A stretch of 47,374 bases of DNA from Bacteroidales bacterium (GTDB taxonomy: Bacteria > Bacteroidota > Bacteroidia > Bacteroidales > VadinHA17): assembly GCA_003141715.1 (NCBI GenBank), contig PLNF01000119.1, forward strand, positions 1 through 47,374, in the 5' to 3' direction. The translations under genes were made by a program, and so were the position numbers. Below, one piece after another: positions 4,301 to 47,374 of the stretch (position 1 is the stretch's first letter; the number at the start of each line of letters is the position of its first letter). The notes beneath the pieces were generated by a model, which worked only from the letters and a program-made list of their open reading frames with translations, did no database searches and had not been told where the DNA came from.

Positions 4301-4308
4301 TATCTTTG
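4301..4308 (+). promoter_or_regulatory. -7 promoter element next to the second M23 start
   Basis: TATCTTTG matches TAnnTTTG exactly. The ATG of the second M23 gene is only 6 bases downstream, so a transcript from here would be leaderless or nearly so. The TTG inside this element is in frame with the gene but is better read as promoter than as start codon. Confidence 0.55.
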
Positions 4309-4314
4309 CACAAT

Positions 4315-11557: not shown

Positions 11558-11583
11558 AATGATATTATCATTGTACGAATTTA

Positions 11584-11591
11584 CAAATATA
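11584..11591 (-). promoter_or_regulatory. -7 promoter element for porV-ispF
   Basis: The minus strand reads TATATTTG, an exact TAnnTTTG match, 26 bases before the preferred porV ATG. It suggests porV can be transcribed separately from porU. No good -33 element is visible. Confidence 0.5.
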
Positions 11592-11624
11592 AAACTATTT
11601 TTCAACCTTAATATTGTGTAATTA

Positions 11625-14600: not shown

Positions 14601-15038
14601 GGTTATGAAATAAAATGCAGTGTCAGAATAATTGTGATGCAGGTTATCGTACTCTTTGGTGGTTTCATTATAAATCCACCTGCCTGTACCTTTTGCGAAG
14701 AAAAGGAGATAATCTCCTTCATTAAAAATGCCATCACTTCCTGTAAATGTAAGAACCGACAGCTCTTTCAGGTCGTCGGGTTTTGGTGCATCATTATAAT
14801 ATGATAACTGGCCTGAGTTGTTGCCAAAAATCCTTGGATTGGACGGGTTTTCCAAACCGAGCTGTTTAAGCTTCGAATAGTCGATCCTGTATATTCCGTC
14901 TGAGGTTACTGCAATCTTGAACCATAAACCTTCGGAGAGTTTAGAAGTCGAAGAATAACTATCTTTGGAATTCTGCGCATAAATGTTAGCGGATAAAAGC
15001 AACATGGATATTGGCAATATTTGAAAAATGCTTCTCAT
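11625..15038 (-). CDS. porU: PorU, type IX secretion C-terminal signal peptidase/sortase
   Basis: The 1137-residue C25-family (gingipain-like) cysteine protease removes the C-terminal signal of T9SS cargo and attaches the cargo to the cell surface. Order: signal peptide (cleavage near IYAQ, residue 22), N-terminal beta domains, the C25 domain with its dyad H638 (NYTGHGNEN) and C672 (ITATCEFSRF), and a C-terminal Ig-like region. The end is itself a T9SS type A-like domain (LLNYPNPF, then VWDGNDEGGRRVGRGIYPYT). Length fits known PorU proteins. An exact -7 element lies only 8 bases before the ATG. PorV follows downstream; the PorP-like gene diverges upstream. Confidence 0.96.
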   Translation of the reverse strand: MRSIFQILPISMLLLSANIYAQNSKDSYSSTSKLSEGLWFKIAVTSDGIYRIDYSKLKQLGLENPSNPRIFGNNSGQLSYYNDAPKPDDLKELSVLTFTGSDGIFNEGDYLLFFAKGTGRWIYNETTKEYDNLHHNYSDTAFYFITSGPTPGKKIVPAAEPIQPATYNSSESDALFIHELDIENLIQSGREWFQEISTVHIDPGFTELMTSENVKYNIRVAARASVPTIFRLYEGNSLEKSIQVDGVNLFDYTGTYAQITDSSGSIQPSSTSPVYDITFFNNGETGAHGWLDWITLQGRRSNSFSGSEMQYSDSKSVAPGRITGFTIRSLNNDALIWDVTDPLNVKQIQYARDGENVGFKSATDTLKTFIAFTVANAIVPLIKPVAVPNQDLHSSASADMIIITHPLFSAYAEKLADIHLKNDGLISQIVTPEQIYNEFSGGIPDIAAIRNFLRMKYFRQKGSAHPLKYLLLFGDGSYENKTPPPNNPNFIPTYQSQNSNVVVSSFTSDDFYGLLNDGDGEADGTLDIGIGRLPVSDTTQAGIVLSKIKRYLDPVNMGGWKNVICLTADDEDGNTHMIDAEGLAAVLNDSVPAYNIDKIYLDAFPQTTTVNGQSYPEVNKAINDRINSGCLIFNYTGHGNENELAAERVVTTDDINSWKNGGKLPLFITATCEFSRFDNIEINLATRQMTGKPSGGEMVLLNKDGGGIALMSTTRVVYSAPNYDLNRNIFSCAFNHDESGNPLSLGDIIKIAKNNSGSGPNKRNFTLLGDPALKLAYPYHGKVITDSVNNVSVYDKIDSLKALSIITIAGHIEDPLGNRLNTFNGVVAPLVYDKPSKIKTLANDGGESMTFNLRNNILFSGKTMAKNGRFRFTFIVPRDIDYSFGSGKISYYAYDDKEDMNGSFNDIIVGGFYKTMLTDNEGPDIKLYMNDTLFKNGGLTDSNPTLLAIINDQSGINTTGSGIGHDLVGYLDNESDRTFVLNGYFENDFDNYMKGSIKYYLSGLSEGNHSVTVKAWDNFNNSSEKTISFQVVTGGRFMIRNLLNYPNPFLKETSISLEHNRPDYELDVTINIFSIDGRIIKIIKTKTYPTGYTLPPVVWDGNDEGGRRVGRGIYPYTVTVITGSGETARVSGRMIIL

Positions 15039-15155: not shown

Positions 15156-16124
15156 ATGTTGTGGCGACTTAGTAAATTAGTTTTATTCATCTTCTTCCTG
15201 CCTGTGTATTGTTTCGCACAGGAGACTGATCCCGGGCCGGGCTATCAGATGATGATGATGAATAATCCTTCACTTGCCGGAATCGGGGGAGACGGGGTAT
15301 TGAGGTTGTCATATCTTAATTTTTATCCTGGCAATAATTATAATCTTCATTCTGTTTATTTATCATACGACTCATATTTTTCTGAATTACATGGGGGTGC
15401 AGGATTATATCTCTCTGATGATTATCTGGGCGGAATTATTAACGATTTCAGGGGAGGATTATCATATGCATATTTTTTGCAGGCCGGGAAAGATCTCTTT
15501 ATAAATGGCGGGCTTTCAGCTTCAATTTACCACAGGGGATTTAACTTTGACAATGCAATTTTACCTGACCAGATAGATCCACTCGGAGGTGTTTCAATTC
15601 CTTCTTCAGAAGTACTGGCATCGTCAGGAAGAACAGTATTTGATATTGGGGCGGGATTTCTCTTTACCTCCGGAAAATTTTCAGGCGGGTTTTCGATCAA
15701 TCACCTTGCCGAACCTGATTTGTCCGCCACAGGCAATTCCAAAGAAAGATTAAAAAGAAAACTTCTCGTCCATCTTTCGGAGGATTTCACTCTTAGCAAA
15801 GCCCAGAATCTGAAAATCCAGCCTCTGACATATTTTGAAATACAGGGAGGTTTCATTAATGGCGGTGCAGGAGCGGCAATAGAAAGCAGATATCTGGCAA
15901 TTAATGCTGTAGTTTTAGGTGATAATGGGAAAAATCTGAATATCCAAACAGGGTTTTTTTTCAAAGCCGGCAGAATCACAGGTTTTTACAATTATCGGTT
16001 TAATGTAGTTTCAGGAAATAAATTATTACCATTATCCCTTCTGCATCAGACAGGACTTGCATTCAGTTTAAATAATGTTGAAAAAAGAAATACAATCAAA
16101 ACAATAAATTTTCCTAAATTGTAG
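15156..16124 (+). CDS. PorP/SprF family type IX secretion membrane protein
   Basis: A 322-residue predicted outer-membrane beta-barrel. It has a signal peptide (MLWRLSKLVLFIFFLPVYCFAQ, cleavage near residue 21), then the family-typical NNPSLAGIGGDGVLRLSYLNFYPG (here given in part), YSSELHGG-like strands, 'GGAGLYLSDDYLGGIIND' and repeated amphipathic strands. Members of the PorP/SprF family anchor or assist export of partner proteins at the outer membrane; SprF helps export SprB in Flavobacterium. It diverges from porU and is followed by gldJ after an 82-base gap on the same strand. Whether it serves the core machine or one cargo cannot be told from sequence. I see no full -7 consensus upstream. 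Confidence 0.88.
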   Translation: MLWRLSKLVLFIFFLPVYCFAQETDPGPGYQMMMMNNPSLAGIGGDGVLRLSYLNFYPGNNYNLHSVYLSYDSYFSELHGGAGLYLSDDYLGGIINDFRGGLSYAYFLQAGKDLFINGGLSASIYHRGFNFDNAILPDQIDPLGGVSIPSSEVLASSGRTVFDIGAGFLFTSGKFSGGFSINHLAEPDLSATGNSKERLKRKLLVHLSEDFTLSKAQNLKIQPLTYFEIQGGFINGGAGAAIESRYLAINAVVLGDNGKNLNIQTGFFFKAGRITGFYNYRFNVVSGNKLLPLSLLHQTGLAFSLNNVEKRNTIKTINFPKL

Positions 16125-16165
16125 TTATATTTGATGAGTAAAAAAAATGATTTAGTAAAAATTGT

Positions 16166-16173
16166 TATATTTG
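16166..16173 (+). promoter_or_regulatory. -7 promoter element for gldJ
   Basis: TATATTTG, an exact TAnnTTTG match, lies 33 bases before the gldJ ATG. It would let gldJ be transcribed apart from the PorP-like gene. Confidence 0.5.
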
Positions 16174-16206
16174 GGTATTCTTAAAAGCCATAAAACTAAA
16201 GGAGTT

Positions 16207-17712
16207 ATGTATAAATTCAGAGCCTTACCAGTTGTTTTAATCGCTGTCTTGCTTTTTACCTCCTGTATTTTTAAGAAAAAGGGGAAAGATGATGTTTCCA
16301 CTTCAACAGGATGGAAGTATAATGATCCTGATATGGGCGGATTTGAAGTTGCTCTTGGAGCTGACCAGAAAACTGGTCCTGGCCTGGTACTGATTGAAGG
16401 TGGCCGTTTTACAATGGGACAGGTTGCACAGGATGTTATGTTCGACTGGAATAACAAACCAAGAACAGTTACAGTATCATCATTTTATATGGATGAAACA
16501 GAGGTTAAGAATGTTGACTACCGGGAGTACCTTTTCTGGCTGCGCAGGGTTTACAAAGATTATCCTGAAGTCTACAGAAGAGCCCTGCCTGATACATTAG
16601 TCTGGAGAACCCCGATGGGATTTAATGATCCTTATGTCCAGTATTATTTCCGGCACCCTTCTTATAATAATTATCCGGTTGTTGGTGTGAGTTGGGTAAA
16701 GGCAAATGATTTTTGTCTTTGGAGAACCGACAGGGTTAATGAACAATTGCTTATTGACTTTGGTGAGCTTAAAGCCGATCCAAACCAGTCAAATGAAAAG
16801 AACTTTAATACAGAAGCATATCTTGCAGGTCAGTATGAAGGTGTTGTAAATCAGTTACGCACAAGTCTTGATCCGAATCAGAAAGAACGCCGGACAAACT
16901 TTGAAGATGGGGTGCTGCTTCCCAGTTACAGACTGCCAACAGAAGCTGAATGGGAATTTGCTGCTTATGCACTCAGAGGCAATACATTTGAAGAGAGGAT
17001 TTATGAAAGAAGAATTTATCCCTGGGATGGTCATAACGTCAGAAATGCATCAAAAAAGAACAGAGGTCAGATGATGGCAAACTTTGTACGCGGAAGAGGT
17101 GACATGATGGGAGTAGCCGGAAGCCTGAACGATAACGGAAGTATTACAGTTGATGTGAAATCATACTGGCCAAACGATTACGGGCTTTATTGTATGGCCG
17201 GAAATGTTAATGAATGGGTACAGGATGTTTACCGTCCGCTTACATCGGAAGATGTTGATGGTTTTAATCCTTTCAGAGGGAATGTCTTTACTGATCTGAA
17301 GCGCGATGTCAATGGCTCGGTTGTAGCTAAAGATAAACTCGGACGTTTATATATAGATACCGTTAAAGATGCTGATGTGGCAAACAGATATAATTATCAG
17401 AAAGGCGATTACAGGAACTATAGGGATGGGGACCTTCAATCAGCGATACCCGGAGGAGGAGGAACTGATTTTACAGTTGAGGATGGGAAAAAAGGCTCTC
17501 TCAGGATGTATGCCCAGGATAACACTGCCGGAAGCAGTGATTTTGTAACTCTCATTAATGATAATGCCCGTGTATATAAAGGCGGTTCATGGAGAGACAG
17601 AGCCTATTGGCTTAATCCATCCACAAGAAGATTCCTCGATCAGGAAAGCAGTCGCGATGATATCGGCTTCAGGTGTGCAATGATCAGGGTTGGAAGTCCT
17701 TCCGGTTTATAG
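16207..17712 (+). CDS. gldJ: GldJ, gliding motility/type IX secretion lipoprotein
   Basis: A 501-residue lipoprotein. The signal peptide ends in the lipobox LFTSC with lipidated C20. It then has a formylglycine-generating-enzyme-like (SUMF1) fold: LIEGGRFTMGQVAQDVMFDW, YPVVGVSWVKANDFCLWRTD, YRLPTEAEWEFAAY, MAGNVNEWVQDVYRP, VYKGGSWRDRAYW and a C-terminal RRFLDQESSRDDIGFRC. In GldJ/GldK this fold is structural, not catalytic. I call GldJ rather than GldK because gldLMN do not follow, whereas porU, porV and murF, the usual neighbours of gldJ, are here. The ATG is supported by an unusually good AAAGGAG ribosome site 4 bases upstream; an in-frame TTG at 16162 lies before the promoter element. A strong terminator follows the stop. 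Confidence 0.93.
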   Translation: MYKFRALPVVLIAVLLFTSCIFKKKGKDDVSTSTGWKYNDPDMGGFEVALGADQKTGPGLVLIEGGRFTMGQVAQDVMFDWNNKPRTVTVSSFYMDETEVKNVDYREYLFWLRRVYKDYPEVYRRALPDTLVWRTPMGFNDPYVQYYFRHPSYNNYPVVGVSWVKANDFCLWRTDRVNEQLLIDFGELKADPNQSNEKNFNTEAYLAGQYEGVVNQLRTSLDPNQKERRTNFEDGVLLPSYRLPTEAEWEFAAYALRGNTFEERIYERRIYPWDGHNVRNASKKNRGQMMANFVRGRGDMMGVAGSLNDNGSITVDVKSYWPNDYGLYCMAGNVNEWVQDVYRPLTSEDVDGFNPFRGNVFTDLKRDVNGSVVAKDKLGRLYIDTVKDADVANRYNYQKGDYRNYRDGDLQSAIPGGGGTDFTVEDGKKGSLRMYAQDNTAGSSDFVTLINDNARVYKGGSWRDRAYWLNPSTRRFLDQESSRDDIGFRCAMIRVGSPSGL

Positions 17713-29110: not shown

Positions 29111-29174
29111 ACCTGCTAAACTTTTACACATTAGCTGTATGGATTATCAACAACGAATTAAAGAAATATTTTTA

Positions 29175-29182
29175 TAAGTTTG
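29175..29182 (+). promoter_or_regulatory. -7 promoter element for the TerC-histidine kinase operon
   Basis: TAAGTTTG fits TAnnTTTG, 18 bases before the ATG at 29201. It overlaps an in-frame TTG at 29180, which argues against that TTG as start codon. Confidence 0.5.
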
Positions 29183-29200
29183 CAGGCTAATGTCAAATTA

Positions 29201-33246: not shown

Positions 33247-33365
33247 GATAAAAACATTTGAATCTGACCTGTATGATACGTAAAAATCCTATTATTGAAT
33301 TACTTTTGGGTTTAATTAACCTTCCTATTGTTGCGGATTTAGTAAAACCTGACAGTTGCAAGGAA

Positions 33366-36300
33366 ATGAAAAAGTCCAAAGGCATAATGCGGAACTTATT
33401 GCAAAAAGGAGCATTTGTTTTAATATTTTTGACTTTTTTAAGTAATTTGTCATTTGGTGCCATAAAAACATGGCAACTTGCAGGACTTGGATCCTGGGCC
33501 ACTCCCGCAAACTGGTCGGGAGGAACGGTACCTGCCGCTGGTGATGATGTGATTATCAACTTAACTGCTGCAGGAATTATATCCAACGTTCCTTCAATCA
33601 GCCTGAACTCTTTAAGTATCGGTGGAACTGCCAATGTTACATTGACAGGGACAGGAGCTTCAGTAATTACTATCAATAATATCAGTGCGACAGTGGCCTT
33701 AAATATTATTGGCGGTCGTACCCTTACTTTAGGCGCGGGAACTGCAGCCACTGCAGTAAGTATTACGTTTCAGACAATCACAACGGCTACAACCATTTCA
33801 GGTACACTGGCAAATACTGCAGCCAATACAATTACTATCAATCCTTTACAGACTTTAACAATAGCCGGAACCGGGACTTTTACTGCAAATGTCGGAACAA
33901 TCACTGTAAATGGTACAATTTCAAACGCTGGAACCGTAACCGGTGCAGCTACTCTTACTTTCGCAGCTAACTCAGCTTATGTACATAATCGGGATGGTGG
34001 TATAATTCCTACAGCAACCTGGAATGCAACCTCAAACTGCAATATTACCGGGTTAACGGCAATAACTCCAGGAGGTTTAGGTCAAAACTTTGGTAATTTT
34101 AACTATTCAAGCTCATATGCTTTACCACTGGGAGCCAATTTAGCCGTTGCTGGTAACCTTGATATATCAGTTGGCAGTATAACAGCATCAACTTTTACAA
34201 TAAATCTGACAGGAAATTTTACTGGTACTAATGCACTATCATTTACAACAGGTATACTAAATATTGGAGGGAACTTTACCAATAACGGTGCATTTGCATG
34301 TGGAACAAGTACTGTAAATTATAATGGTGTAGCGCAACAAGTAAATAGTACTACATATAACAATTTAACTATATCAGGAAGTGGTATAAAGACTTTGCAG
34401 GGTGATGTTACCGTAAATAACAACCTTTCAGTCGCAGCCGGTACTTTCAGTTTTGGAAATGTTGCTGCCAGGAATGTTGTTGTTACCGGAAATCTTAGTG
34501 GTGTTGGAACCATTGATATGAGCGGGGGAGCATTGGCTCATGTCTTAACTCTAAACGGCCCGAATAATGCAATCACAACTTTTACAGCAGGTTCCGGTAC
34601 GGTTATTTATAGTGGAGCAGTTGCACAACAGATATTCGCCGGGACATATTATAAACTTATAACCCAAACCAGCAACCAGGTCCGAACAATACAGGGCAAT
34701 GTTACAATAAACAATGACTTATCAGTATCTCTTGGAACTTTCAGCTTTGGCAATGTACTAAGAACGGTTAGTGTTACAGGAAATTTAAGTGGTGCCGGAA
34801 CAATAGATATGAGCGGTGGAGCTGTTGCCCATATATTAAACCTTGGAGGGGTAAATAATTCTATTGGTACCCTTACTACCGCCGCAGTGGCTAGCGTCAT
34901 TAATTATAACCTGGCAGGAGATCAGACTGTTTTTGCCAGCCCCAACTATCGGAATCTGACTATTTCAGGGAGTGGTAACAAAACCATGCAGGGAGATATT
35001 TCAGTTGGCGGAACAGCGACATTCAATACTGCAGGCTGCGCTTTGGTAATTAACGGGAATACGTTATTCCTTAATAACGCAACAGCAGGAACTAATGGTA
35101 CAATTACAGGCAGTCCTGCTTCAAATATTGTAATTACAGGAAACGCAACTCCTGTTATGATTTTACCAGGAATTATAGGAGGGTTAAATAATTTTACTAT
35201 TAATAAAACAGGTGCTAATAATACAGTTACTTTAGGAGGAGACCTGAATGTTGCAGGTACATTAACATTAACGGCCGGCGCATTATCAATTGCAGCAAAT
35301 ACACTTACTCTGCCTGATGCAGCAAATCTTAGTTATGGAGCTGGTTCATTAACCGGAGGCGTGACGTCTAACCTTACAATCGGAACAGGAGCAGATATAA
35401 CATTGAATGCAATAGCAGGTGGATTAAATAATTTCAGTACAAGCAGGAATATAATATTGGGAGCCGGGTTATCTTTAAATGGGACTCTTACTCTTACCGC
35501 AGGTACTTTTACTGTCGGAGGAAATACCCTCACATTAAACGGGCCAACCATTGCCGGAACGCCAACAAATTTAGTAACAACAGCAGCATCCAGTCTTGTG
35601 TTTGGCGGAACAACATCAGGAGTATTAATACCAACCAGTGTTGTCGCAATAAGTGGCCTTTCAATAACCAATACCAGTATTGTTAATTTACAAAGCTCGC
35701 TTACAGTAAGCGGAATATTCAACCCTACTGGTGCCGGTTTATCTATTGGGGCAAACACATTAACACTTAATGGCGTAATAAATTGTGGAACTCTTGTGGG
35801 CGGTCCAACTTCCAATATTATAATTGGTGGTGCCGGAGCAGCTAATTTATCTGGGGTGACATTAAATAATCTTACGATTAACAGGGCAGTTACAATGTGT
35901 GGTAGTGTTACTGTGGGCGGAACTCTTACTCTCACTTCAGGAGCATTATCAATTGCAGCAAATACACTTACACTGTCCAATGCCGGGACTCTCAGTTATG
36001 GACTTGGTTCATTAACCGGAGGCGTGACCTCTAACCTTACAATCGGAACAGGAGCAGATATAACATTGAATGCAATAGCAGGTGGATTAAATAATTTCAG
36101 TACAAGCAGGAATATAATATTGGGAGCCGGGTTATCTTTAAATGGGACTCTTACTCTTACCGCAGGTACTTTTTCTGTTGCAGGAAATACCCTCACATTA
36201 AACGGACCAACAATTGCCGGAACACCTGCAAATCTGATAACAACAGCAGCATCCAGTCTTGTATTTGGAGGTACAACAGCAGGAGTTTTAATTCCTTCCA

Positions 36301-39300
36301 GTGTTGTTTTATTGAATGGACTTTCAATAACCAATACCAGTATTGTTGCTTTGGAAAGTTCTCCAACTCTCAGTGGAATATTCAATCCCACAGGTGCCGG
36401 TTTATCAATCGGGGCAAATACTCTGACACTTAATGGACAAATAAATTGTGGAACCCTTGTGGGAGGCCCTACTTCCAATATTGTAGTTGGTAACGCCGGT
36501 GCAGCGAGTTTATCGGGAGTGACTTTGAATAATCTTACTATTAACAGAGCACTTGTGACAATGTGTGGTAATGTTACTGTTGGCGGAACACTTACCCTCT
36601 CTTCAGGAGCATTATCAATTGCAGCAAATACACTTACACTTTCCAATGCCGGAACTCTCAGCTATGCCGCTGGTTCATTAACCGGAGGAGTAACTTCTAA
36701 CCTTACAATCGGAACAGGTGCAAATATTACATTAAATGTAATAGCAAACGGATTAAATGATTTCAATACAAGCAGGAATATAACATTAGGGGCAGATTTA
36801 TCACTGAATGGGACTCTTACTCTTAATGCCGGTACTTTTACTGTTGGTCCAAGGTTACTCACATTGAATGGACCTGCAATTGCCGGAACACCCGTTAACT
36901 TAATAACTATTGCTGCATCAAATTTATCTTTTGGCGGGTCCTCTGCCGGAGTTTTTATTCCGGGCAATGTTACAAATTTGACTAATCTTACAATAAATAA
37001 TGCAAATGGTGTTACTATGAATAGTAACATTACACTTGCAGCCGGCGGAGTTTTGACTCTTACAAGCGGTATTGTTCAGGCCGGAACCAATATCCTGAAA
37101 ATTACTAACCCAAATCCTGTTACAGCTCTGGTATGGTCCCCCGGGACTTTTCTAAATGTCACTCCCGGTGGTGGTGTGGAAAGAACTTTATCTCCGAATT
37201 TGGTTGGATCAGGAAATAATTATTTGTTTCCGATAGGAGATGGGGGAGTTTATAAAGCGATTAACCTCAGGGATGTAAATACCGGAGTTACCGGTCCGGT
37301 TCTTAGAGCGTCAGAAAGCGCAACAGGAGCATTAACAGGTGATGGAACGACAATTGGTATCGTTGATCCACGCTATTGGTCTTTGATAAATTTAAACAGC
37401 GGTAATTTTACAAGTGCCAAAGTAGAATTATTTGAAAGTGGTCTTGATTTTTCAAAAACAATAGGCATGTCTGCTGCTGTAGCCGGAAATTATTCTGCTA
37501 TTGGAGGTTCAAGTAATACATCTTCTATAATTTCCCCAACTGTTCTTAACCCTGGCCCTTATTTTAGTATAGGAGCAAGCATCCTGGGTACATATTATTC
37601 CTACGAGAATGGTGATTGGAATAATCCGGTTACATGGACATCTGACCCCAGTGGAACACTTCAAATTGGCACCACCATACCCGCAGATAATGATAAGGTT
37701 GTGATTCTTACAGGTCGTAATGTATCTTTATCAGCCGATATTGCCACCAAAACACTTGACATTACAATTAATGCTGGTGGCTTCCTTGATCAGACAATTT
37801 ACAGGTTTACTAATTCGATATATGCCCTTCGCGGACAAGGAACCATCAGGCTTGCTTCTGCAAATTTCCCCGCTTCCGTAATCAATACATTTATTAATGC
37901 CGGTGGAGGAACTACCGAGTACAACAATACGGCTAATTTTACCTTACCTGCTGCACAAACCACATATAATAATTTAACAATTAATACCTCTGGTTTTGTA
38001 GCAACACAATTAAGCAACATAACATTAAATGGGGATTTATACATCAAGAGCGGAACATTTCAAATCAATAACAACGTAGCCGTTGCTAAACTTATTCTTA
38101 CCATAAACGGGAATGTAACTGTTGATAATGGTGCATTTTTTACCGTTGGAAATGGCCCCACAAACCCTGCAATCGGAATTGTAACTGCTGGTGGTGCTGC
38201 GCCTTTCATAAATTATTATACTTATTTCCATACGGTAATTATCAAAGGTGATCTTACTAATAATGGTACTGTAAAGTTCACAAACCTTCCATATCCTATT
38301 TACAATGCTTTTCCTCCGGTTGCAGCCGGGCCGACTTCAGGTGCTGCTTCAGTATATTTCCAGGGAGCAAGCGATAATACAATAACCTGTAATGGGGTTA
38401 CTAACTTTTATAACCTGATCCTCGATAAAGGAATTGACCAGACATACAAGCTGACGATTAATTCAACGAATTACGCAAACTTCAAGTTATTTGGAGCAAA
38501 CGTAACAGCTCCTGAAGTAGCTGGTTTAAGCAATCCAAATCTCAGAAAAGCTTTGTGGATTCGTACAGGTACTCTTGATTTAAAAGGTACGTTAATTATA
38601 CCTTCACTTTCTGAAGGGACTCTTGCTAATTGCGATTACTACATCCCCTCGAACGGGGCTTTGATAGTTGATGGTGTCGATGTGGTTGTACTTTCAAGTG
38701 CTGATGATTACAGGGAAATAAATGTGGCATATACTGTTGCAGCTCCCAACAATGCAACAATCGGAGTTACGATGGGTGGATTCAGTGCCCTGGATATATA
38801 TGGTAAACTGCAAATAAATAACGGTTATCTTTCAACCAGAGAGTCTGGGGGATTAATCACTTCAAATATTGCCTCCGGACAACTCATTATTAATGGGGGA
38901 ACTGTTGACGCCAAGCAGCTTCTTTCCTCAACAGGTTTTGCATCTTATACACAGACGGGAGGATTATTTATTCTCCGTGGCCGGTTCCAGCGTACACCGG
39001 TAACTTATTTAACCGTTGCCAATCTCACAGATGTTTCGGTTGCATCCTTAAATACATCAAGGGCAGTAAATGGTACCAATTCTGCCTTTGGCTCATTTAA
39101 CCTTGAACAACCAACCAATATTTTTTCTATGTCGGGGGGCACTATACAAATTTACGATGTATGTGGAGTAGCCGGTGCAGAACAGAAAGCTATTGATGTG
39201 AAATCATCTTTATCAAATATAAATGTTACAGGCGGCACTTTAGAAATAAGACCTACAACAGGTACAGCTTTAGCAGATGCAGGGAATTATTATATAAATT

Positions 39301-42300
39301 CAAGTGCACCTTTAATGAATTTACTTATTAATCGTGCAAGTAGTCTTTCAGTTGTTCAATTAAATACATCTCCATTAGTTGTACTAAATAACCTTACTCT
39401 TACTTCAGGAGATTTTTCAGCGAATAATTTAAATGTTACAGTCAGTGGAGATTTTTTTATTGCGGCTGGAACCTCCTATACTCCGGGAACCAACACCACT
39501 ATCTTTAATGGAACCGGAAATCAGACATTCACAGTTAATCTTGCAGCACTACTTTCGCTTAATAAGCTTACTATTAACAAAACAGCAGGGGTTGCTCTGA
39601 ACTTTGCCGGAACACAATCTATCATAAATGTTGCAAGTGATTTCAGTCTGGTTTTAGGTACTTTGAATGATAATGGCAATGCGATTAATATAGCAGGCAA
39701 CGTTTTCAACTCAGGAATTCATGCCGGCGCTGGTAAAGTGTCTTTGAACGGAACATTAACCCAGACGATTGACGGAAATGGTATTTTCGGAAACCTTGAA
39801 CTGAATAATACGAATGCTGCCGCAGCCCCGGTTTCCCTGGTAGCAAATATAACCCTTAATGGGTTGCTTACCTTTTCACAGGATAAGCTTTTTAATATTA
39901 ATACAAATAATTTAAAGCTTAACTCAACAGCCTCTATTGTAAATGGTGGAGCATTAAGGTACATTAAATCTGCCGGAAACGCCGGTGATGGAGGTCTTAC
40001 AAAAGTGTACTCATCTCCAGCTGCTTTTAATTTTCCTGTTGGAGTAGTTAATTACACACCGGGTTCACTAGGGCTTAGCGCTGCGCCGACAACGTATGGT
40101 TCTATCACGGTGATACCTGTAAATTATGAACATCCCAATGTTACAGTACCAGGAAGAAGCCTTACCTATTTCTGGCGCGTAAAATCTTCCGGTTTCACGT
40201 TAGGAAGCGCCACAGTCAGTCATGGATATACATACTCTCCGGCAAACGTTGTAACGGGTCCGGGAATAACAGAAAATGAATATGTTGCTGCGCGTTTTAA
40301 TGTCTCTACAAGTACATGGACAAACGGTACGACTGCCGATATTGATATAATTGGCAAAATTATAGGGCAACCCGGCGCTGGTACCTTCCTTAAAAATGTT
40401 ACTTTCATCGATGGCGACTACACTGCAGGTGATAATAATCCAATCAATCCATTTGGTACACCTACAATCTATTACAGCAGAATAAATGGAGCTGGTCCTG
40501 GTAGCGGACTTTGGAGCAGCGTTAATACCTGGTCCACCGACCCGGTATTACAACACACAGGTGCTCCTGCAGCATCAGTTCCGGGAGTTAGCGATATTGT
40601 AATCATCGGAGCTAAGGATTCCGTATATCTTGCAACAAATAATACAGCAGCTAACACAGATGTCAGGAGTTGCGCAAGTTTAAGGATTGAAAAAGGATCC
40701 GCTCTTGATATAGGGTATAATCCTGCATCGAGTTTTGGTTTGGTTCTGAATAGTCCGGGAGGCAATGGAAATTTCAGGCTGACAACATCCTGGACTTCAG
40801 GAAGTACATTTACCTTCCCCCTTGGAGACTTTTCAGATTATAATGTAAATCTGGGTACAACGGAACTCTACTCAACAAACGCGGCAAGCAATACTACTTA
40901 TTGGTTACCCAATGGTGTCTATTCATATGGTAATTTAATTCTTTCTCCACTTGGAGGGTCGAATATTATTTTCCCGAATAATGATTTGGCAATTTATGGG
41001 AACCTGATCACTCGGGGCCAGAATGCAGATTCGTGGTTCTGCCCGTCATGGAATACTCCATATCCAAATGCTCCAACTGCTCTTGTTGCAAAAACAATTA
41101 CAATAAATGGGAATTTAGATATTCAAGGTGGTGCCCTTGAATGGTATGCGAATGGTGCAATCGCCCAGAATATTGTTGTAAATGGGAATGTAATAGTAGC
41201 CACACTTGCCACAATTAGTGATGATCCAGGTGGCGCTGCCAACCAGCGCTTATCTATTGGAGGCAGCTTGATTAACAATGCAAACGGATTAGCAAATCCT
41301 CCTGCCGGAACAGTTGCACAATGCAGATTTACAAATATTCCTGTGACTTTCTTTGGTCCTACGTCAGCAAGTATTACGAATACAATTGGTTCTCCGTCAA
41401 CAACATTTGGACAGTTGACCATTAATAAGGGGACTTCAAAAGCGACTACACTTAACTGCAGCATCGGAGGTACACTAAATACACCGGTCGATAACTGGTT
41501 AACATTGCAAAACGGTACGTTCAATTTTACGCGAACTAACCCTAATTCAGATTTTACTGTTTCAACAACTACACCTTTTACAATTCCTTCAACTGCAGGG
41601 TTTGGAGTTAATTATACAAACTCTAATAACAAGAACATACTTATTGGTAATGCTGCCAACAATAGTGGCGATCTCCTTCTGAGCGGAGTACTCACATTGG
41701 TCAATGGAAATATTTATGTAGGTCCGATTGCTGCTCCGGCTACCAATAATGATATAGAGTATTCAGGAGGTGGGGCATCTGACATCGAAATACAGGGTGG
41801 AAATCTTGTAGTTAATGGCCAGGTTCGCAGAAATACTTCAACCACAAATGGAATTCTAACTTATAACCAAAGTGGTGGTGCAGTTACAATAAACGGCAAC
41901 GCTGCAGTACCGGGTTATGCTAAATTAGAGGTATTAAATTCGAGTAGTGTATTCAATATGTCAGGCGGTACACTTACCATCGTGCGTGGAGGAGGTACTA
42001 CATTTGGAGATTTGTATCTGAGACCTGCAAGTTCTTCGGTAACAGGCGGTACAATAATATTTACCAACGTAATTCCAAATACTCTTCAAAACTATTCATT
42101 AGATGCAAATATACCGTTAAACAACCTTACAGTTACAGGATCTGCCGGTGTGGGTTTGAATGCTAATCTGGGTCTTATTGTAAGTCCGTTGGTACTTAAT
42201 GGAACTCTGACACTGAGTAATGCACAGAGCATATTCAACTCAAATAATATTAATGTTTCCATAAAAGGTAACTTAGATAACAGCGGCACCTATAATTTTG

Positions 42301-45300
42301 GCACCAATACAACAACATTTAACGGTGGAGTACAGCTAATTACCGGAAGCTCGATAACTAATTTTTATAATCTTAATGTATCCTCAGGGAGTTCTCTTAC
42401 TGTAAATAATAATTTTTCAGTTAACAAGGATTTGTTGATAGGAAGCGGAACGCTGACCCTTGGCAACAAGAAATTAACCCTTTCAGGGAACCTTGTAAAC
42501 AACAGTTCTTATACCGACGACAATACAACTGGCGGCATAAGTTTATCTGGTACGACTCAGCAGCAGATTTCCGGAACAGGATTTTATGGAAAGCTTGAGA
42601 TCAACAATAGTTCAGGAGCTAAACTGAACAATGATATCATGCTTCAAAATGACCTTGTACTTACCCAGGGTATCTTCAATATTAACTCAAATCTTCTTAC
42701 ACTAAGCCAATTCAGTAGTATCATTGGGGTACCTGGTATAACCAAAATGATTATGTCTGATGGTGTAACAAGCAGCTTTGGACTCAGGAAGTTTTTTACT
42801 GCTTCTGCGCAATCATTTACTTTCCCTGTAGGGGTTGCCGGGAAATATACACCTGCTACTTTTACGATTACGGCAAATGGAGCCATTGGTTATATAAATG
42901 TTAATCCTATTAACAATAATCATCCAAGCGTTTTGGATCCTTCTAATGTTCTGAAATACTATTGGAAGATTGAAAGTTCGGGAATTTCAGGATTTGATGG
43001 GAGTGTCGTATTGCAATATCTGCCCGGCGACGTAAATGGTAATGAAAGTAATTATGTTGCTGCAGAACTTGCACTTCCGGGTAACTACTGGTATAAAGCA
43101 CCCGTTGGACCAGGAACTGATAATGTAAATGAAACCAGTCATCAGATCACTTTCAATTATTCCGGAAGCAGTAATCTAAGCGGCGATTATACTGCAGGTA
43201 TTTACGCTGCCTTCCCCGGTGAAGTTCCTACATACCAGACAAATAGTGATGGTTTTTGGTCAGATCAGACAATTTGGACTCCGGTTGGTTCATCTCCTCC
43301 TTGTCCTGCAGGAGGACCAAATGGAAGTAATGTCATAATTGATCATGTTGTTACAACTAATATTAACAACGTATTTGCATTAAACACAACAATTAACAAA
43401 GAACTGAGAATAGTTTCACCAACCTTCGGACATAGCCTTGGAAATGTGGACGGTAATGGGACAATTTATTTGGAAAATGGTAATCTGCCGGCTGGTAATT
43501 ATGACACCTTTATTGATTGTTCAGGAAACGGAACAATTGAATATGGAGGTACGGGTAGTTATACGATCATTGCAACCCAGTTCAGCAGTTTACCTAATAT
43601 GTATATTTCAGGAACAGGGACGCGGATACTTCCGAATAAGGATCTGACAATATGCAAAAGACTTATTATTGACGGTGCTACTCTTGACAATAGTGTGAAT
43701 AATAAAAAGCTGACGATCCTTGGCACAATGGAACGTTATAATACCGGTGCCTTCATCAGTGGAATTGGCGCCTCTCCGTCATCAACAGTTACTTTTGCGG
43801 GTACACTTATTCAGAACCTTGGCGGTCCTACTGGTGACTTCATAGGAGCCAACAAGTTTAATAATCTTGAGATTAATAACCCTGCCGGTTTGAATATCAA
43901 TGGACTCGTTGAAGTTAATAATGAATTATTGCTCACCAGTGGTATCATTAATACAACTAGTGCCAACAGCCTTACTTTATTAAGTACTTCATCCGCAGCG
44001 GTTTTCCCAACTGGTGGAAGTGCTAACTCTTTTGTTAACGGACCACTGATTAAGAATATAATTAATGGAGGTAATTTTATTTATCCGATAGGAAATGGAA
44101 CTACTAAAGGTCATAATTTTACCCTCACCTCAACAGCCGGAAGCACTTTATTCTGGACCGCCGAATATTTTACACCTAATCCAACTGCGACTTTCTTAAC
44201 TCCACCTTTGCAAGTATCTAATAGTAAGGAATATTGGAGCGTCAGCACTACAATCGGAGCGACAGCAAAAGTCAAAATAGGATGGGATCCTTTGAGTGAT
44301 CTGACACCTCTTATGACATTAAATGGTATGCCTGATATGAGGGTTGCAGAATACAATGGCACTTCATGGACTGAATTGGCATCAATTGCCTCAGGCAATA
44401 ATAATAACGGAGATGTAGCTACTGTCAACGATGTTAATCTCTCCACTACACCCAAGAACTATACTACTGCAAGTGTTTCTCCGACAATAGCAAGAGCATC
44501 ATTAGCTCCTTTAGGTCCGGTGTGCGGTGCAGTAGGAATTCCTGTGAATTTTGCTTCATTTATCCTGATTAATCTTAATTATACTCTTGATTATACAATT
44601 AATGGCACTCCACAGCCAACAATTAATGTAACATCATTACCCTATTCTTTGCCAACTCCCGTTCCAGGAGCCTACAAATTAACAGGTTTCACTTATAATA
44701 ACGGAGGTAATGTCGGAGTAGTAGATGGGACAGTGGTTAATGCATATGCATCACCAATGGCATCAAATGCCGGGTTAGATCAATCACTCTGTGGAGTATC
44801 CGGATTAATTCTTGCTGGCAATAATCCTGCACCTTACTCAGGCTTATGGACAATTGTCAGTGGTCCGGGAGGTACATTTGTAAATAGCTCACAGTTTAAC
44901 ACTGTCTTTACGGGTGTTCTTGGTCAAACCTATACATTACGCTGGACTATCAGCAATGCAACCTGTACTTCATCGGATGATGTAACAATTTCATTTCCTG
45001 TTGTGGCTGCAATGCCATCGAATTTCATATCTGCTCCAACCCAGGTATGTCAGGGCTCCGGAGGGTATATTTACACAGTCCCGAATGTTGCCGGCTATAC
45101 TTACAACTGGAGCTATACTGGTGGTTCGGGCCAGACAATACATGGAACCGGAAATTCTGTTACAATAGATTTCAGCACGTCAGCTACAAGCGGCACATTA
45201 AATGTAACTGCAACAAATTCCTGTGGAACAAGCGCTCCTAGATCAATAGCAGTTACTGTAAACTCATTGCCTGCTCCATCCATAATTGGTAGTAACACTG

Positions 45301-47374
45301 TCTGTCCGTTTTCAACTGGCATTATCTACAGTACAACAAATAACCCGGGAGACACATATAACTGGGTTGTATCCGGCGGAGTTATAAATGGATCTTCAAC
45401 AGGAAGCAGCATTGTGGTAAATTGGGGCTCTATTGGTACTGGTACAGTCAGAGTCACTGAAACCTATCCTTTAGCCGGATGTACATTCACAACTCCTGAT
45501 TATAATGTGACAATTAGTGATATCTTACCTCCGATAATATCAAATTGTCCTGCAAATATTTTTGTAAATAATGATCCGGGTTTGTGTTCTGCAGTTGTAA
45601 TATGGACTGAGCCTACCGCAATTGACAACTGTACATCGGCAGGGAGTCTCATCTGGACAAAATCTCATCTGCCGGGTTCTACTTTCCCTTCAGGTACAAC
45701 ACCTGTAACTTATACAGCAACTGATGCTTCAGGTAATACAAGCCTTATATGCACTTTTAATGTAACGGTTACTGATAATACCAGTCCGATAATTACTTTA
45801 CCGGCTCCTCCGACCTTAAATGCAGATGCAAGCTGCCATGCAATTATGCCTCTTATTGCTGCCACAGCAACGGATAATTGCTCAATTCCTGCCAATATTA
45901 CGATAACCCAGCTCCCGGCAGCTGGTACAATAATAGGCACCGGTGTAACAGCCGTTACGATCACTGCAACTGATCAGGCTGGAAACAATTCAGTATCAAG
46001 CATTAACGTTACAGTTCTTGATGTCATTCCGCCAATAGCTATTTGCAAAAATATTACTGTTGTTCTTGATGCAACTGGTAATGCTTCAATTGTAGCTGCA
46101 GATATTGATAACGGAAGCAGTGATAACTGCGGAATAGCATCAATGTCAATTAGTAAATCCAGCTTCACATGTGCTGATCAGGGAATTGTTCCCGTTACTT
46201 TAACCGTTTTTGATAACACTGGGAATTCTTCAACATGTATTTCAAGCGTAAATGTTACAAGCAGTCTTAAAATTACCAATATATCATTGAGCACCTGTGA
46301 TGTGGCACCTCCTTTTGCACTCTTTTCATCAACAGTTGCAGGTGGTAGTGGTACCTATACATATTTCTGGCATTGCTTAGAAAGTACAGCCTATCCGTTT
46401 ATGTACATGGATGCTATCCCTCCTTTCTTACATTTTACAAAGACAAGTTCAACTGCTTTTCCATTCTTTAATAGCACAATGCCAAATGGTACATACCATA
46501 TTCGTTTGCTTGTTACTGATGGAAATGGTTGCAAGGATTCTTCAGAAATGGTTTTAAACCAGGGAAGTGTGACATTTAATAATGTTACACTCCTTTATTC
46601 AAATGCATGTGAAGGAGAGACTAAAACTTACACCGTTGCTTTTGATGCTGCTGCAACTTATATCTGGAATGTGGCAAATGGAGTATTTCAGACACCTATT
46701 AATACGAATACAGTAGATGTCAAATGGAATTTGGGAGCTACACAAGGAGTAGTGACAGCAAATGTAACAAAACCTGATATTAATGGAAACTCCTGTGGTT
46801 CATCTACAGTTGATTCGGTTTCTATACATCCGACTCCTTCTCCAGGTTTTATTGCCCCGGTAGTAAGTGTTTGCGCAGGAAGTACAGTTACATATACTCT
46901 TTCACCTCCAGCTTATAGTAGTTATGCTTGGACAGTGACCAACGGAACCATTGTTGTCGGGGGAACTCCTTCAAGTAATTTTGTAACAGTGCTTTGGAAT
47001 ACAACTTCTCCTGGTAGTGTAGCTGTGGATGTTACTTCTGCATCTGGTTGCATCGGTTCAACAAGCTTGATGGTTAATATTTATAATGTAGCGGGTTCTA
47101 TCACAAGTCAAACCAATGAAAGCTGTACCGGAAGTGGTGACGGTTCTGTAACAGTAGTAGCAACAGCTGGCAGTGGATTGGCCCCTTATCTATATTCAAT
47201 TAATGGCGGTGCAAATTGGTTTTCACCACCTTTCAATACCTTTAATTCACTTAGTGCAGGGAGCTATACAGTAATAATTAAGGATGCTCTGGGATGTACT
47301 TTTAATGTGCCAGTTGTGATAACAGTCTCACCTAATAATACTGTTGCCAGAACCTCAGCAGCAGGCACGGATGC
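33366..47374 (+). CDS. Giant secreted modular adhesin, SprB-like; 3' end outside window
   Basis: One frame stays open from ATG 33273 to the last base. From the preferred ATG 33366 there are at least 4669 residues and no stop. ATG 33366 begins a clean signal peptide (MKKSKGIMRNLLQKGAFVLI, then FLTFLSNLSFG); ATG 33273 would add 31 residues. Composition is rich in T, N, G, S and A with short 'YNNLTI', 'GTLTL' and 'INGN' strands, as in beta-solenoid adhesins. Four composite modules start at about 33460, 37587, 40464 and 43230, each opening with a W-x(n)-nW cap and closing with FP[IV]G then YW. After them come PKD/Ig-like domains (about 44760-45520), three HYR-like domains (from about 45520, 45773 and 46020), further PKD-like segments and an SprB-type repeat (47091-47330, GDGSVTV...YSINGG...AGSYTVIIKDALGC). 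A T9SS C-terminal domain is expected past the edge. Probable role: surface adhesion or gliding. Confidence 0.92.
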   Translation, partial: MKKSKGIMRNLLQKGAFVLIFLTFLSNLSFGAIKTWQLAGLGSWATPANWSGGTVPAAGDDVIINLTAAGIISNVPSISLNSLSIGGTANVTLTGTGASVITINNISATVALNIIGGRTLTLGAGTAATAVSITFQTITTATTISGTLANTAANTITINPLQTLTIAGTGTFTANVGTITVNGTISNAGTVTGAATLTFAANSAYVHNRDGGIIPTATWNATSNCNITGLTAITPGGLGQNFGNFNYSSSYALPLGANLAVAGNLDISVGSITASTFTINLTGNFTGTNALSFTTGILNIGGNFTNNGAFACGTSTVNYNGVAQQVNSTTYNNLTISGSGIKTLQGDVTVNNNLSVAAGTFSFGNVAARNVVVTGNLSGVGTIDMSGGALAHVLTLNGPNNAITTFTAGSGTVIYSGAVAQQIFAGTYYKLITQTSNQVRTIQGNVTINNDLSVSLGTFSFGNVLRTVSVTGNLSGAGTIDMSGGAVAHILNLGGVNNSIGTLTTAAVASVINYNLAGDQTVFASPNYRNLTISGSGNKTMQGDISVGGTATFNTAGCALVINGNTLFLNNATAGTNGTITGSPASNIVITGNATPVMILPGIIGGLNNFTINKTGANNTVTLGGDLNVAGTLTLTAGALSIAANTLTLPDAANLSYGAGSLTGGVTSNLTIGTGADITLNAIAGGLNNFSTSRNIILGAGLSLNGTLTLTAGTFTVGGNTLTLNGPTIAGTPTNLVTTAASSLVFGGTTSGVLIPTSVVAISGLSITNTSIVNLQSSLTVSGIFNPTGAGLSIGANTLTLNGVINCGTLVGGPTSNIIIGGAGAANLSGVTLNNLTINRAVTMCGSVTVGGTLTLTSGALSIAANTLTLSNAGTLSYGLGSLTGGVTSNLTIGTGADITLNAIAGGLNNFSTSRNIILGAGLSLNGTLTLTAGTFSVAGNTLTLNGPTIAGTPANLITTAASSLVFGGTTAGVLIPSSVVLLNGLSITNTSIVALESSPTLSGIFNPTGAGLSIGANTLTLNGQINCGTLVGGPTSNIVVGNAGAASLSGVTLNNLTINRALVTMCGNVTVGGTLTLSSGALSIAANTLTLSNAGTLSYAAGSLTGGVTSNLTIGTGANITLNVIANGLNDFNTSRNITLGADLSLNGTLTLNAGTFTVGPRLLTLNGPAIAGTPVNLITIAASNLSFGGSSAGVFIPGNVTNLTNLTINNANGVTMNSNITLAAGGVLTLTSGIVQAGTNILKITNPNPVTALVWSPGTFLNVTPGGGVERTLSPNLVGSGNNYLFPIGDGGVYKAINLRDVNTGVTGPVLRASESATGALTGDGTTIGIVDPRYWSLINLNSGNFTSAKVELFESGLDFSKTIGMSAAVAGNYSAIGGSSNTSSIISPTVLNPGPYFSIGASILGTYYSYENGDWNNPVTWTSDPSGTLQIGTTIPADNDKVVILTGRNVSLSADIATKTLDITINAGGFLDQTIYRFTNSIYALRGQGTIRLASANFPASVINTFINAGGGTTEYNNTANFTLPAAQTTYNNLTINTSGFVATQLSNITLNGDLYIKSGTFQINNNVAVAKLILTINGNVTVDNGAFFTVGNGPTNPAIGIVTAGGAAPFINYYTYFHTVIIKGDLTNNGTVKFTNLPYPIYNAFPPVAAGPTSGAASVYFQGASDNTITCNGVTNFYNLILDKGIDQTYKLTINSTNYANFKLFGANVTAPEVAGLSNPNLRKALWIRTGTLDLKGTLIIPSLSEGTLANCDYYIPSNGALIVDGVDVVVLSSADDYREINVAYTVAAPNNATIGVTMGGFSALDIYGKLQINNGYLSTRESGGLITSNIASGQLIINGGTVDAKQLLSSTGFASYTQTGGLFILRGRFQRTPVTYLTVANLTDVSVASLNTSRAVNGTNSAFGSFNLEQPTNIFSMSGGTIQIYDVCGVAGAEQKAIDVKSSLSNINVTGGTLEIRPTTGTALADAGNYYINSSAPLMNLLINRASSLSVVQLNTSPLVVLNNLTLTSGDFSANNLNVTVSGDFFIAAGTSYTPGTNTTIFNGTGNQTFTVNLAALLSLNKLTINKTAGVALNFAGTQSIINVASDFSLVLGTLNDNGNAINIAGNVFNSGIHAGAGKVSLNGTLTQTIDGNGIFGNLELNNTNAAAAPVSLVANITLNGLLTFSQDKLFNINTNNLKLNSTASIVNGGALRYIKSAGNAGDGGLTKVYSSPAAFNFPVGVVNYTPGSLGLSAAPTTYGSITVIPVNYEHPNVTVPGRSLTYFWRVKSSGFTLGSATVSHGYTYSPANVVTGPGITENEYVAARFNVSTSTWTNGTTADIDIIGKIIGQPGAGTFLKNVTFIDGDYTAGDNNPINPFGTPTIYYSRINGAGPGSGLWSSVNTWSTDPVLQHTGAPAASVPGVSDIVIIGAKDSVYLATNNTAANTDVRSCASLRIEKGSALDIGYNPASSFGLVLNSPGGNGNFRLTTSWTSGSTFTFPLGDFSDYNVNLGTTELYSTNAASNTTYWLPNGVYSYGNLILSPLGGSNIIFPNNDLAIYGNLITRGQNADSWFCPSWNTPYPNAPTALVAKTITINGNLDIQGGALEWYANGAIAQNIVVNGNVIVATLATISDDPGGAANQRLSIGGSLINNANGLANPPAGTVAQCRFTNIPVTFFGPTSASITNTIGSPSTTFGQLTINKGTSKATTLNCSIGGTLNTPVDNWLTLQNGTFNFTRTNPNSDFTVSTTTPFTIPSTAGFGVNYTNSNNKNILIGNAANNSGDLLLSGVLTLVNGNIYVGPIAAPATNNDIEYSGGGASDIEIQGGNLVVNGQVRRNTSTTNGILTYNQSGGAVTINGNAAVPGYAKLEVLNSSSVFNMSGGTLTIVRGGGTTFGDLYLRPASSSVTGGTIIFTNVIPNTLQNYSLDANIPLNNLTVTGSAGVGLNANLGLIVSPLVLNGTLTLSNAQSIFNSNNINVSIKGNLDNSGTYNFGTNTTTFNGGVQLITGSSITNFYNLNVSSGSSLTVNNNFSVNKDLLIGSGTLTLGNKKLTLSGNLVNNSSYTDDNTTGGISLSGTTQQQISGTGFYGKLEINNSSGAKLNNDIMLQNDLVLTQGIFNINSNLLTLSQFSSIIGVPGITKMIMSDGVTSSFGLRKFFTASAQSFTFPVGVAGKYTPATFTITANGAIGYINVNPINNNHPSVLDPSNVLKYYWKIESSGISGFDGSVVLQYLPGDVNGNESNYVAAELALPGNYWYKAPVGPGTDNVNETSHQITFNYSGSSNLSGDYTAGIYAAFPGEVPTYQTNSDGFWSDQTIWTPVGSSPPCPAGGPNGSNVIIDHVVTTNINNVFALNTTINKELRIVSPTFGHSLGNVDGNGTIYLENGNLPAGNYDTFIDCSGNGTIEYGGTGSYTIIATQFSSLPNMYISGTGTRILPNKDLTICKRLIIDGATLDNSVNNKKLTILGTMERYNTGAFISGIGASPSSTVTFAGTLIQNLGGPTGDFIGANKFNNLEINNPAGLNINGLVEVNNELLLTSGIINTTSANSLTLLSTSSAAVFPTGGSANSFVNGPLIKNIINGGNFIYPIGNGTTKGHNFTLTSTAGSTLFWTAEYFTPNPTATFLTPPLQVSNSKEYWSVSTTIGATAKVKIGWDPLSDLTPLMTLNGMPDMRVAEYNGTSWTELASIASGNNNNGDVATVNDVNLSTTPKNYTTASVSPTIARASLAPLGPVCGAVGIPVNFASFILINLNYTLDYTINGTPQPTINVTSLPYSLPTPVPGAYKLTGFTYNNGGNVGVVDGTVVNAYASPMASNAGLDQSLCGVSGLILAGNNPAPYSGLWTIVSGPGGTFVNSSQFNTVFTGVLGQTYTLRWTISNATCTSSDDVTISFPVVAAMPSNFISAPTQVCQGSGGYIYTVPNVAGYTYNWSYTGGSGQTIHGTGNSVTIDFSTSATSGTLNVTATNSCGTSAPRSIAVTVNSLPAPSIIGSNTVCPFSTGIIYSTTNNPGDTYNWVVSGGVINGSSTGSSIVVNWGSIGTGTVRVTETYPLAGCTFTTPDYNVTISDILPPIISNCPANIFVNNDPGLCSAVVIWTEPTAIDNCTSAGSLIWTKSHLPGSTFPSGTTPVTYTATDASGNTSLICTFNVTVTDNTSPIITLPAPPTLNADASCHAIMPLIAATATDNCSIPANITITQLPAAGTIIGTGVTAVTITATDQAGNNSVSSINVTVLDVIPPIAICKNITVVLDATGNASIVAADIDNGSSDNCGIASMSISKSSFTCADQGIVPVTLTVFDNTGNSSTCISSVNVTSSLKITNISLSTCDVAPPFALFSSTVAGGSGTYTYFWHCLESTAYPFMYMDAIPPFLHFTKTSSTAFPFFNSTMPNGTYHIRLLVTDGNGCKDSSEMVLNQGSVTFNNVTLLYSNACEGETKTYTVAFDAAATYIWNVANGVFQTPINTNTVDVKWNLGATQGVVTANVTKPDINGNSCGSSTVDSVSIHPTPSPGFIAPVVSVCAGSTVTYTLSPPAYSSYAWTVTNGTIVVGGTPSSNFVTVLWNTTSPGSVAVDVTSASGCIGSTSLMVNIYNVAGSITSQTNESCTGSGDGSVTVVATAGSGLAPYLYSINGGANWFSPPFNTFNSLSAGSYTVIIKDALGCTFNVPVVITVSPNNTVARTSAAGTD
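34328..35035 (+). repeat. Three tandem ~98-aa repeats inside the giant adhesin
   Basis: Equivalent points (the CAGGG of the 'QGDV/QGNV/QGDI' motif) fall at 34398, 34692 and 34989, spacings of 294 and 297 bases (98 and 99 codons). Units share 'VAQQ...TY..LT', 'QG.VT.NN.LSV..GTFSFGNV' and 'VTGNLSG.GTIDMSGGA.AH.L.L'. The third unit is diverged after its first half. DNA identity is moderate, so this duplication is old. Confidence 0.8.
35281..37080 (+). repeat. Tandem 221-222-aa repeats (2.7 copies) inside the giant adhesin
   Basis: Units begin CATTATCAAT at 35281, 35944 and 36610, spacings of 663 and 666 bases (221 and 222 codons); the third copy fades near 37080. Copies 1 and 2 share an identical 144-base block (35367-35510 and 36030-36173), while copy 3 differs at many positions in the same block. 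Each unit encodes 'GALSIAANTLTLxxAxxLSY', 'GSLTGGVTSNLTIGTGA', 'NxFxTSRNI' and 'LGAxLSLNGTLTL'. The frame is kept throughout. Confidence 0.9.

Follow-up and report, generated by a model that had tools for sequence, protein, structure and literature searches.

The 47,374-nucleotide stretch analysed here (the window), which is the entire contig C108 of a 148-contig, 3.70-Mb draft genome of an uncultured Bacteroidales bacterium, probably holds the N-terminal and central part of a very large surface adhesin. The protein would be exported by T9SS with a type B end and held by a dedicated carrier, and it is more likely stationary than propelled. If contig C27 of the same genome carries the 3' end of the gene, the adhesin would have at least 5,397 residues.

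In the mechanism that we propose, Sec would export the chain and T9SS would pass it across the outer membrane. The type B (CHU_C) end, situated outside the window, would stay bound to a dedicated PorP/SprF barrel; this mode of export and holding is proposed because of the families involved. A shaft of capped beta-helix and beta-sandwich modules, extended by PKD, HYR and SprB repeats, would project from the cell, with the variable N-terminal module as its tip, and could bind a glycan-like or particulate surface as putative ligand. Its anchoring would be stationary, rather than serving propulsion along a gliding track.

A single long frame and its conservation

The plus-strand frame is free of stops from 33258 to 47372 (4,705 codons) and open at its 3' end. 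The other two forward frames contain 339 and 364 stops after position 33300, and this one contains none. Across 1,000 random sequences, matched to this region in length and in base composition, no stop-free run in the three forward frames exceeded 214 codons, the mean of the longest runs being 114. A preliminary description, made from the sequence alone, was therefore right that a single frame runs to the window end. It placed the start at the ATG at 33273, which is in frame; the ATG at 33366 (MKKSKG...), with AAGGAA immediately upstream and a signal-peptide-like stretch after it, fits better. It is from this second ATG that the described length of 4,669 visible residues is obtained. The antisense open frames mentioned there are also present, as six ORFs of at least 100 codons overlap the adhesin frame.

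Because the window is a whole contig and the frame is open to its last codon, the 3' cut of the gene is an assembly edge. The last residues fall inside a TSxxGTD repeat unit, and the same holds for the frame in G032. Six 3' fragments from other genomes were tested; those of G027, G020 and G009 have a TSxxGTD unit within their first 28 residues, and those of G005, G026 and G010 do not start in such a unit. Four units of a looser pattern were seen in the type B homologue L131. Tandem Repeats Finder, with its period limit of 500 bases, reported nothing in the window.

The C-terminal 826 residues matched 49 of the 60 genomes (own included), many of the matches being to single repeats only. Colinear frames that run off their contigs were found in G032 (4,073 codons), G023 (4,583) and G030 (4,294), and G018 has a closed colinear frame of 4,857 codons. 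Homologues split into separate genes, a finding that would have spoken against a single gene, were not seen over the window's part in any of these four genomes. The claim of one real, very long frame for a secreted, adhesin-like T9SS substrate is supported. In the relatives from G011 and G013 the frame is broken 3' of this part, close to the type B end. There the adhesin (L105 on G011:C9, L110 on G013:C36) consists of two overlapping frames, and both contigs are given as 32,279 bases long.

The closed type B homologues L134 (4,857 codons, taken as the same locus as G018:C375) and L131 (5,397 codons) both have CHU_C and a PorP/SprF-type gene directly downstream, the carrier of L131 being recognised from its sequence ends only. 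Among 14 same-genus loci with a C27-type carrier, three (G018, G001 and G014) have a closed, intact-reading adhesin frame; in the other 11 the adhesin either meets a contig edge or is disrupted close to the type B end. Genes of this family are often broken in assemblies.

The adhesin frame is conserved under purifying selection. The dN/dS values in 300-residue bins were mostly 0.07-0.29, rising to 0.45-0.50 in two N-terminal bins; three bins were not computable due to saturated dS, and one had too few codons.

Modules and predicted fold

Four large all-beta modules make up about 80% of the visible protein (Table 1).

Table 1. Features of the adhesin gene and of the T9SS and gliding genes upstream of it, in window positions
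Feature	Position	Strand	Basis
porV, T9SS outer membrane shuttle	10376..11605	-	NCBIfam
porU, T9SS sortase	11625..15038	-	NCBIfam
PorP/SprF-family gene, not adjacent to adhesin	15156..16124	+	NCBIfam, 92.7 vs 90.55 bits, just over cut-off
gldJ, gliding motility lipoprotein, conserved upstream neighbour	16162..17712	+	NCBIfam
Giant adhesin gene, 5' part, 4,669 codons, 3' end past contig	33366..47374	+	ORF; colinear single frames in G032, G023, G030, G018
Signal-peptide-like N terminus MKKSKGIMRNLLQKGAFVLIFLTFLSNLSFG	33366..33458	+	by eye
Module 1, residues 32-1409, with a W-rich cap (residue 44), a long stretch of beta type and an 'FPIG' motif (residue 1286)	33459..37592	+	boundaries by eye
221-residue unit in about three tandem copies, within module 1	35022..37193	+	
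Module 2, residues 1410-2360, conserved core	37593..40445	+	
Module 3, residues 2368-3288, conserved core	40467..43229	+	
Module 4, residues 3289-3707, conserved core; beta-helix-like, then beta-sandwich	43230..44486	+	AlphaFold, structure comparison
PKD_6 domain, best stretch of its slice	45018..45254	+	Pfam
HYR domain, better of two stretches	45519..45770	+	Pfam
PKD_6 domain, best stretch of its slice	46836..47072	+	Pfam
SprB repeat (PF13573)	47103..47216	+	Pfam
First residues of TSxxGTD repeat unit, contig break	47352..47374	+	

Module 1 differs most between species. One pair of its 221-residue repeats is 89.5% identical over 200 residues and 74% identical at the DNA level; outside this repeat, autocorrelation gave no convincing solenoid coil period. 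Module 3 is homologous to module 2, with about 25-28% identity as measured in homologues.

No Pfam cut-off was reached by residues 1-3,800. In the window protein, HYR (two stretches) and PKD_6 scored above their cut-offs, and the SprB repeat reached 35.6 bits against a cut-off of 28 when the 3' slice was scanned alone, being unreported in the whole-chain scan. The HYR, PKD and SprB repeats of the preliminary description thus stand; for its Ig part, Ig_7 remained below its cut-off. The label "SprB-like" holds to the extent that an SprB repeat is present; there is just one, and the bulk belongs to another conserved family of all-beta modules. The adhesin is SprB-like in plan at its end and a different protein in bulk. 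We agree that its module order seems unlike that of the classic SprB.

The AlphaFold model of module 4 (mean pLDDT of 96.0, pTM of 0.91) and its structure comparison suggest a beta-helix followed by a ZU5/GAIN-like sandwich, and we infer that modules 1-3 share the predicted fold. The resemblance to ZU5/GAIN sandwiches concerns the second half of the module, at 44022-44486; sandwiches of this kind are known for autocleavage in animals. The G8 domain (PF10162) was matched weakly by 6 of the 21 members of module 2 and by 1 of the 34 of module 4, with a best E-value of 4.1e-4, and had no match in the window's own modules. The P2_N model of Pfam, below its cut-off in one of the 21 module 2 members, was taken as a chance match. 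The same was concluded for two weak rows (E-values of 0.042 and 0.054) in the PDB sequence search with module 2. Such searches gave no row for module 4, for C27's carrier or for the C27 fragment.

The module family and the mosaic gene

A scan of named genomes with module 4 yielded 38 loci, four of them partial. Their hosts are mostly uncultured Bacteroidales, along with some isolates and a small number of more distant Bacteroidota. The core order of modules 2-4 was kept in all 22 loci tested, namely the long-frame ones among the 38. Module 3 was identified where the module 2 query matched a second time, immediately before module 4. The identity of module 2 was merely 28% in L144 and L145. A limited literature search found nothing on an adhesin family with this core. 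These relatives define a family of very large surface proteins that spans Bacteroidales and beyond, with a core that stays below Pfam cut-offs in the window.

We observed that different parts of the gene are closest to different species. For ten upstream genes, the identity between the own genome (G000) and G032 was 87%, with a dS of 0.60 overall and of 0.37-0.56 for the seven genes farther from the adhesin. The same genes were 68.5% identical to those of G023, with dS of 2.2 or saturated. Within the adhesin, from residue 301 to 3,900, G023 was 71-85% identical in 11 of the 12 bins of 300 residues (dS of 0.5-1.6), compared to 43-79% for G032 where enough codons align. The exceptions to G023 being closer were bins 2101-2400 (58% vs 61% for G032) and 3601-3900 (78% vs 79%). 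From residue 3,901 on, G032 was again closer, with 85-88% identity and dS of 0.45-0.75, compared to 54-76% identity for G023.

The site patterns gave a similar division. Residues 1-200 and 3,801-4,669 make up six bins, each of which favoured G032, with p from 1.7e-3 to 1.7e-26. Thirteen of the 18 bins between favoured G023 (p < 0.05), and bins 201, 1601, 2001, 2201 and 3601 were undecided; the bins of residues 801-1400 had just 16-48 four-way columns each. In residues 2,201-2,400 the own gene pairs with that of G018 (69 sites, compared to 8 and 10). Sequence comparison thus shows the adhesin gene to be a mosaic: through most of its middle it groups with a species more distant than the one matched by its ends and by the genes beside it. 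The exchange may reach into the upstream flank, because the dS against G032 is 0.79-1.16 in the three adjoining genes (nucleotidase, TerC-family and histidine kinase, window 27308-32622) and thus raised over that of the farther genes. That the shaft was swapped between lineages and the ends were retained suggests that selection acts on the target of adhesion.

Upstream neighbours and the candidate 3' end

The preliminary description pointed to porU, porV, a PorP/SprF-like gene and gldJ in the same window. All four are there above NCBIfam cut-offs, about 16-23 kb upstream of the adhesin, and nothing marks them as its dedicated partners. These neighbours are also present in G032 (whose contig begins inside gldJ), G023 and G030. 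The dedicated carrier is likely a different PorP/SprF gene, situated on contig C27.

On C27 (8,603 bases) of the own genome, a 728-codon frame that is open at its 5' end encodes Ig-like units, SprB repeats and CHU_C. Downstream of it lie genes for PorP/SprF, Exo_endo_phos_3 and PolyA_pol, in this order. ORFs that match these neighbours in size, strand and order come after the adhesin in G018 and G001. The type B signal (CHU_C / TIGR04131) occurs on C27 and in the closed homologues L131, L134/G018, G014 and G001. A PorP/SprF gene adjoins the adhesin gene in all four of these closed relatives and on C27, and there is none beside the adhesin on the window contig. The C27-type carrier was found at 65% identity or more in each of the 28 same-genus genomes (own included).

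The two sides of the gene are bridged in G014. Of the ten window genes that run from murF to the histidine kinase, its contig C40 has nine; TerC was not found there. They are followed by about 9.7 kb of other DNA, a 2,014-codon HYR/SprB/CHU_C gene and a PorP/SprF gene with 70% identity to the one on C27. The 3' neighbours also occur in G018 and G001, where the window's upstream neighbours are absent. The bridging gene is short, without the shaft, and aligns with window residues 4056-4659 only; because of this, our confidence in the favoured explanation is slightly lowered.

A search with the last 100 bases of C108 across the own genome found only C108 itself, and three candidate contigs, C27 among them, have no end in common with it. 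C27 begins in NPVC repeat units, unlike the TSxxGTD repeat at the end of C108. There may be a gap between the two contigs, or else another 3' end. Still, C27 is likely the 3' end of the window adhesin, on grounds that are strong though indirect. That the sum of 4,669 and 728 equals the codon count of L131 (5,397) is a coincidence.

Contig C65 was set aside as a 3' end, its carrier being of another group and 43% identical to that of C27. In relatives, CHU_C frames of the C65 group are in most rows separate genes or fragments, with 514 to 3,165 codons. This exclusion is an argument from orthology and not a proof.

Stationary or gliding

The preliminary description implied a gliding role. In that case the protein would be a true SprB equivalent, propelled on the GldJ/GldK track through a carrier contact other than a disulfide, which we consider unlikely. 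It would agree with gldJ in the window, with gldB, gldH and gldK elsewhere in the genome (all four scored above cut-offs, as GldH also did in the control Bacteroides ihuae), with the SprB repeat and with the type B end of relatives. The candidate carrier ends in a strongly conserved tail, KFGESARRYRWINAY, that may dock to something; we speculate that it marks a third docking mode.

The evidence against gliding comes from the same tails. The available part of PMC12635249 reports that the Cys-X-Cys tail of SprF in Flavobacterium johnsoniae forms a disulfide with GldK, required for gliding, and that substitution of either or both cysteines abolished gliding on agar. No Cys-X-Cys tail was found in the 12 own PorP/SprF proteins, in the 19 homologues of C27's carrier (those at fetched loci, not every carrier match) or in 45 PorP/SprF-like frames picked by sequence pattern across all loci, own ones included. 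A gliding role is therefore unsupported. C27's carrier would be the adhesin's partner, and none of the other own PorP/SprF proteins has the motif either. Because the likely carrier has no Cys-X-Cys tail, a stationary adhesin appears more likely than a gliding one.

Two own PorP/SprF proteins have a lone cysteine near the end, at -19 on C57 and at -4 on C118. The latter (L061, positions 10-873 of C118) is the sole own one with a cysteine in its last ten residues, and L061 is a possible track-linked carrier. The own GldK retains two cysteines aligned with those of PorK, one of which would correspond to Cys343 of F. johnsoniae. A tail cysteine is also present in the own DUF6089 protein, which we take to be PorG-like.

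Static type B adhesins do exist: some are described in the part of PMC12618676 available to us, which proposes PorE as the companion of one of them. PorE is not among the two genes scanned beside C27's carrier (Exo_endo_phos_3 and PolyA_pol). The family offers natural cases for asking whether a large type B adhesin depends on the disulfide between SprF and GldK.

Exchange of delivery ends

In a census of 24 closed homologues, 15 had type A ends and 2 had type B ends, both counts from model matches, and 7 had a YH tag recognised by eye; individual rows were assigned to A or B by eye from their tails. Two members also matched the type C model in the C-terminal scan. Left out of the census were L118 and L153, for their unclear letters, and L150-L152, as partial matches; A2 omitted L118 and L150-L153. 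The copies in three cultured relatives (Saccharicrinis aurantiacus, Plebeiobacterium sediminum and Carboxylicivirga linearis) have type A ends by eye. On the module 4 tree the three end states need seven changes. The well-supported branches alone, with open rows computed as a fourth group, force at least three changes for A, three for YH and two for B. Since the end-type labels are clustered on the tree, the exchange of ends is recurrent, not free. With all three kinds of end present among the closed homologues, the shaft does not tell which C-terminal type a protein has.

The YH tag is a short C-terminal pattern, roughly P-x-T-[GS]-x-x-Y-H-[IL]-P, on proteins with no CTD. It ends 21 of 645 distinct closed frames, 19 of which are Ig- or module-type by eye. 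In L122, L127 and L137 the genes after the tagged giant encode first one or two further small proteins, then a small protein with CHU_C and finally a PorP/SprF-type protein. For example, L127:2-16198 has, in order, a 977-codon YH protein (5' cut), a 3,170-codon module-core giant with the YH tag, a 322-codon YH protein, a 338-codon CHU_C protein and a 331-codon PorP/SprF-type protein. Where a short CHU_C frame had an upstream neighbour, the neighbour was tagged in eight of nine cases (L122 being the exception; for L167 no neighbour was found). No CHU_C gene was found after the tagged giant in L120 and L144. The own contigs C77 (L071:5457-9182) and C135 (L072:5337-9034) also have operon-like runs of 'T-[GS]-x-x-YH'-tagged proteins, a small CHU_C protein and PorP/SprF. 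A limited literature search found nothing on export of CTD-less proteins by a partner.

A wider reading can be offered only tentatively. Modules 2-4 (about 2,300 residues) might be a portable Bacteroidales binding shaft, repeatedly plugged into type A, type B or CTD-less export ends. The YH loci might then encode a multi-subunit T9SS adhesin that uses a partner's type B signal, and the window gene its single-chain version, with a PorP/SprF carrier independent of both the GldK disulfide and any PorE encoded beside it. In any case, the module-core family offers natural cases of T9SS delivery ends exchanged on one shaft.

Naturally, the census raises the question of whether the window gene itself ends in a type A signal or a YH tag and not in the type B end of C27, the protein being anchored or released differently. 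We find this rather improbable. Types A and YH predominate among the closed homologues, and the closed rows nearest to the window on the module 4 tree are mixed (B in L134, A in L128 and YH in L120). However, a C27-type carrier lies directly 3' of the closed G018 gene and is linked to the window's upstream neighbours in G014, and the window ends in SprB and TSxxGTD repeats, the latter also seen in the type B homologue L131. As for an assembly artefact, with the frame a chimera or a collapsed repeat array of smaller genes, the contig does end in a repeat, relatives break in the same zone and the genome is a draft, but one colinear frame across separate assemblies (closed ones included), purifying selection over the whole frame and the absence of N letters from the window make it very hard to believe.

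Comparison with known systems

Several beta-helix receptor-binding proteins (phage tailspikes, PfbA of Streptococcus pneumoniae and the Awp adhesins of Candida glabrata) appeared in the structure-comparison rows for module 4, at 6-12% identity. The chain of the window adhesin is much longer than any of these, and the common fold shows no function. The likeness of module 4 to the ZU5/GAIN beta-sandwiches of NLRP1, BAI3 and ankyrin has a moderate Z and may be a mere common arrangement.

The window adhesin differs from SprB in that its bulk consists of large all-beta modules and not of SprB repeats, and in that the tail of its candidate carrier is without Cys-X-Cys. The likeness to SprB and SprF of F. 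johnsoniae, a substrate and its carrier according to the accessible part of PMC9143113, is that of a T9SS substrate with SprB repeats, the closed type B relatives of which sit directly upstream of a PorP/SprF gene. Another related system is the static type B adhesin Fjoh_3952 with its carrier Fjoh_3951, described in the portion of PMC12618676 available to us: a type B signal is combined with a cognate carrier, and the adhesin is predicted to be static. That locus includes the PorE-like Fjoh_3950, whereas the carrier on C27 adjoins the Exo_endo_phos_3 and PolyA_pol genes.
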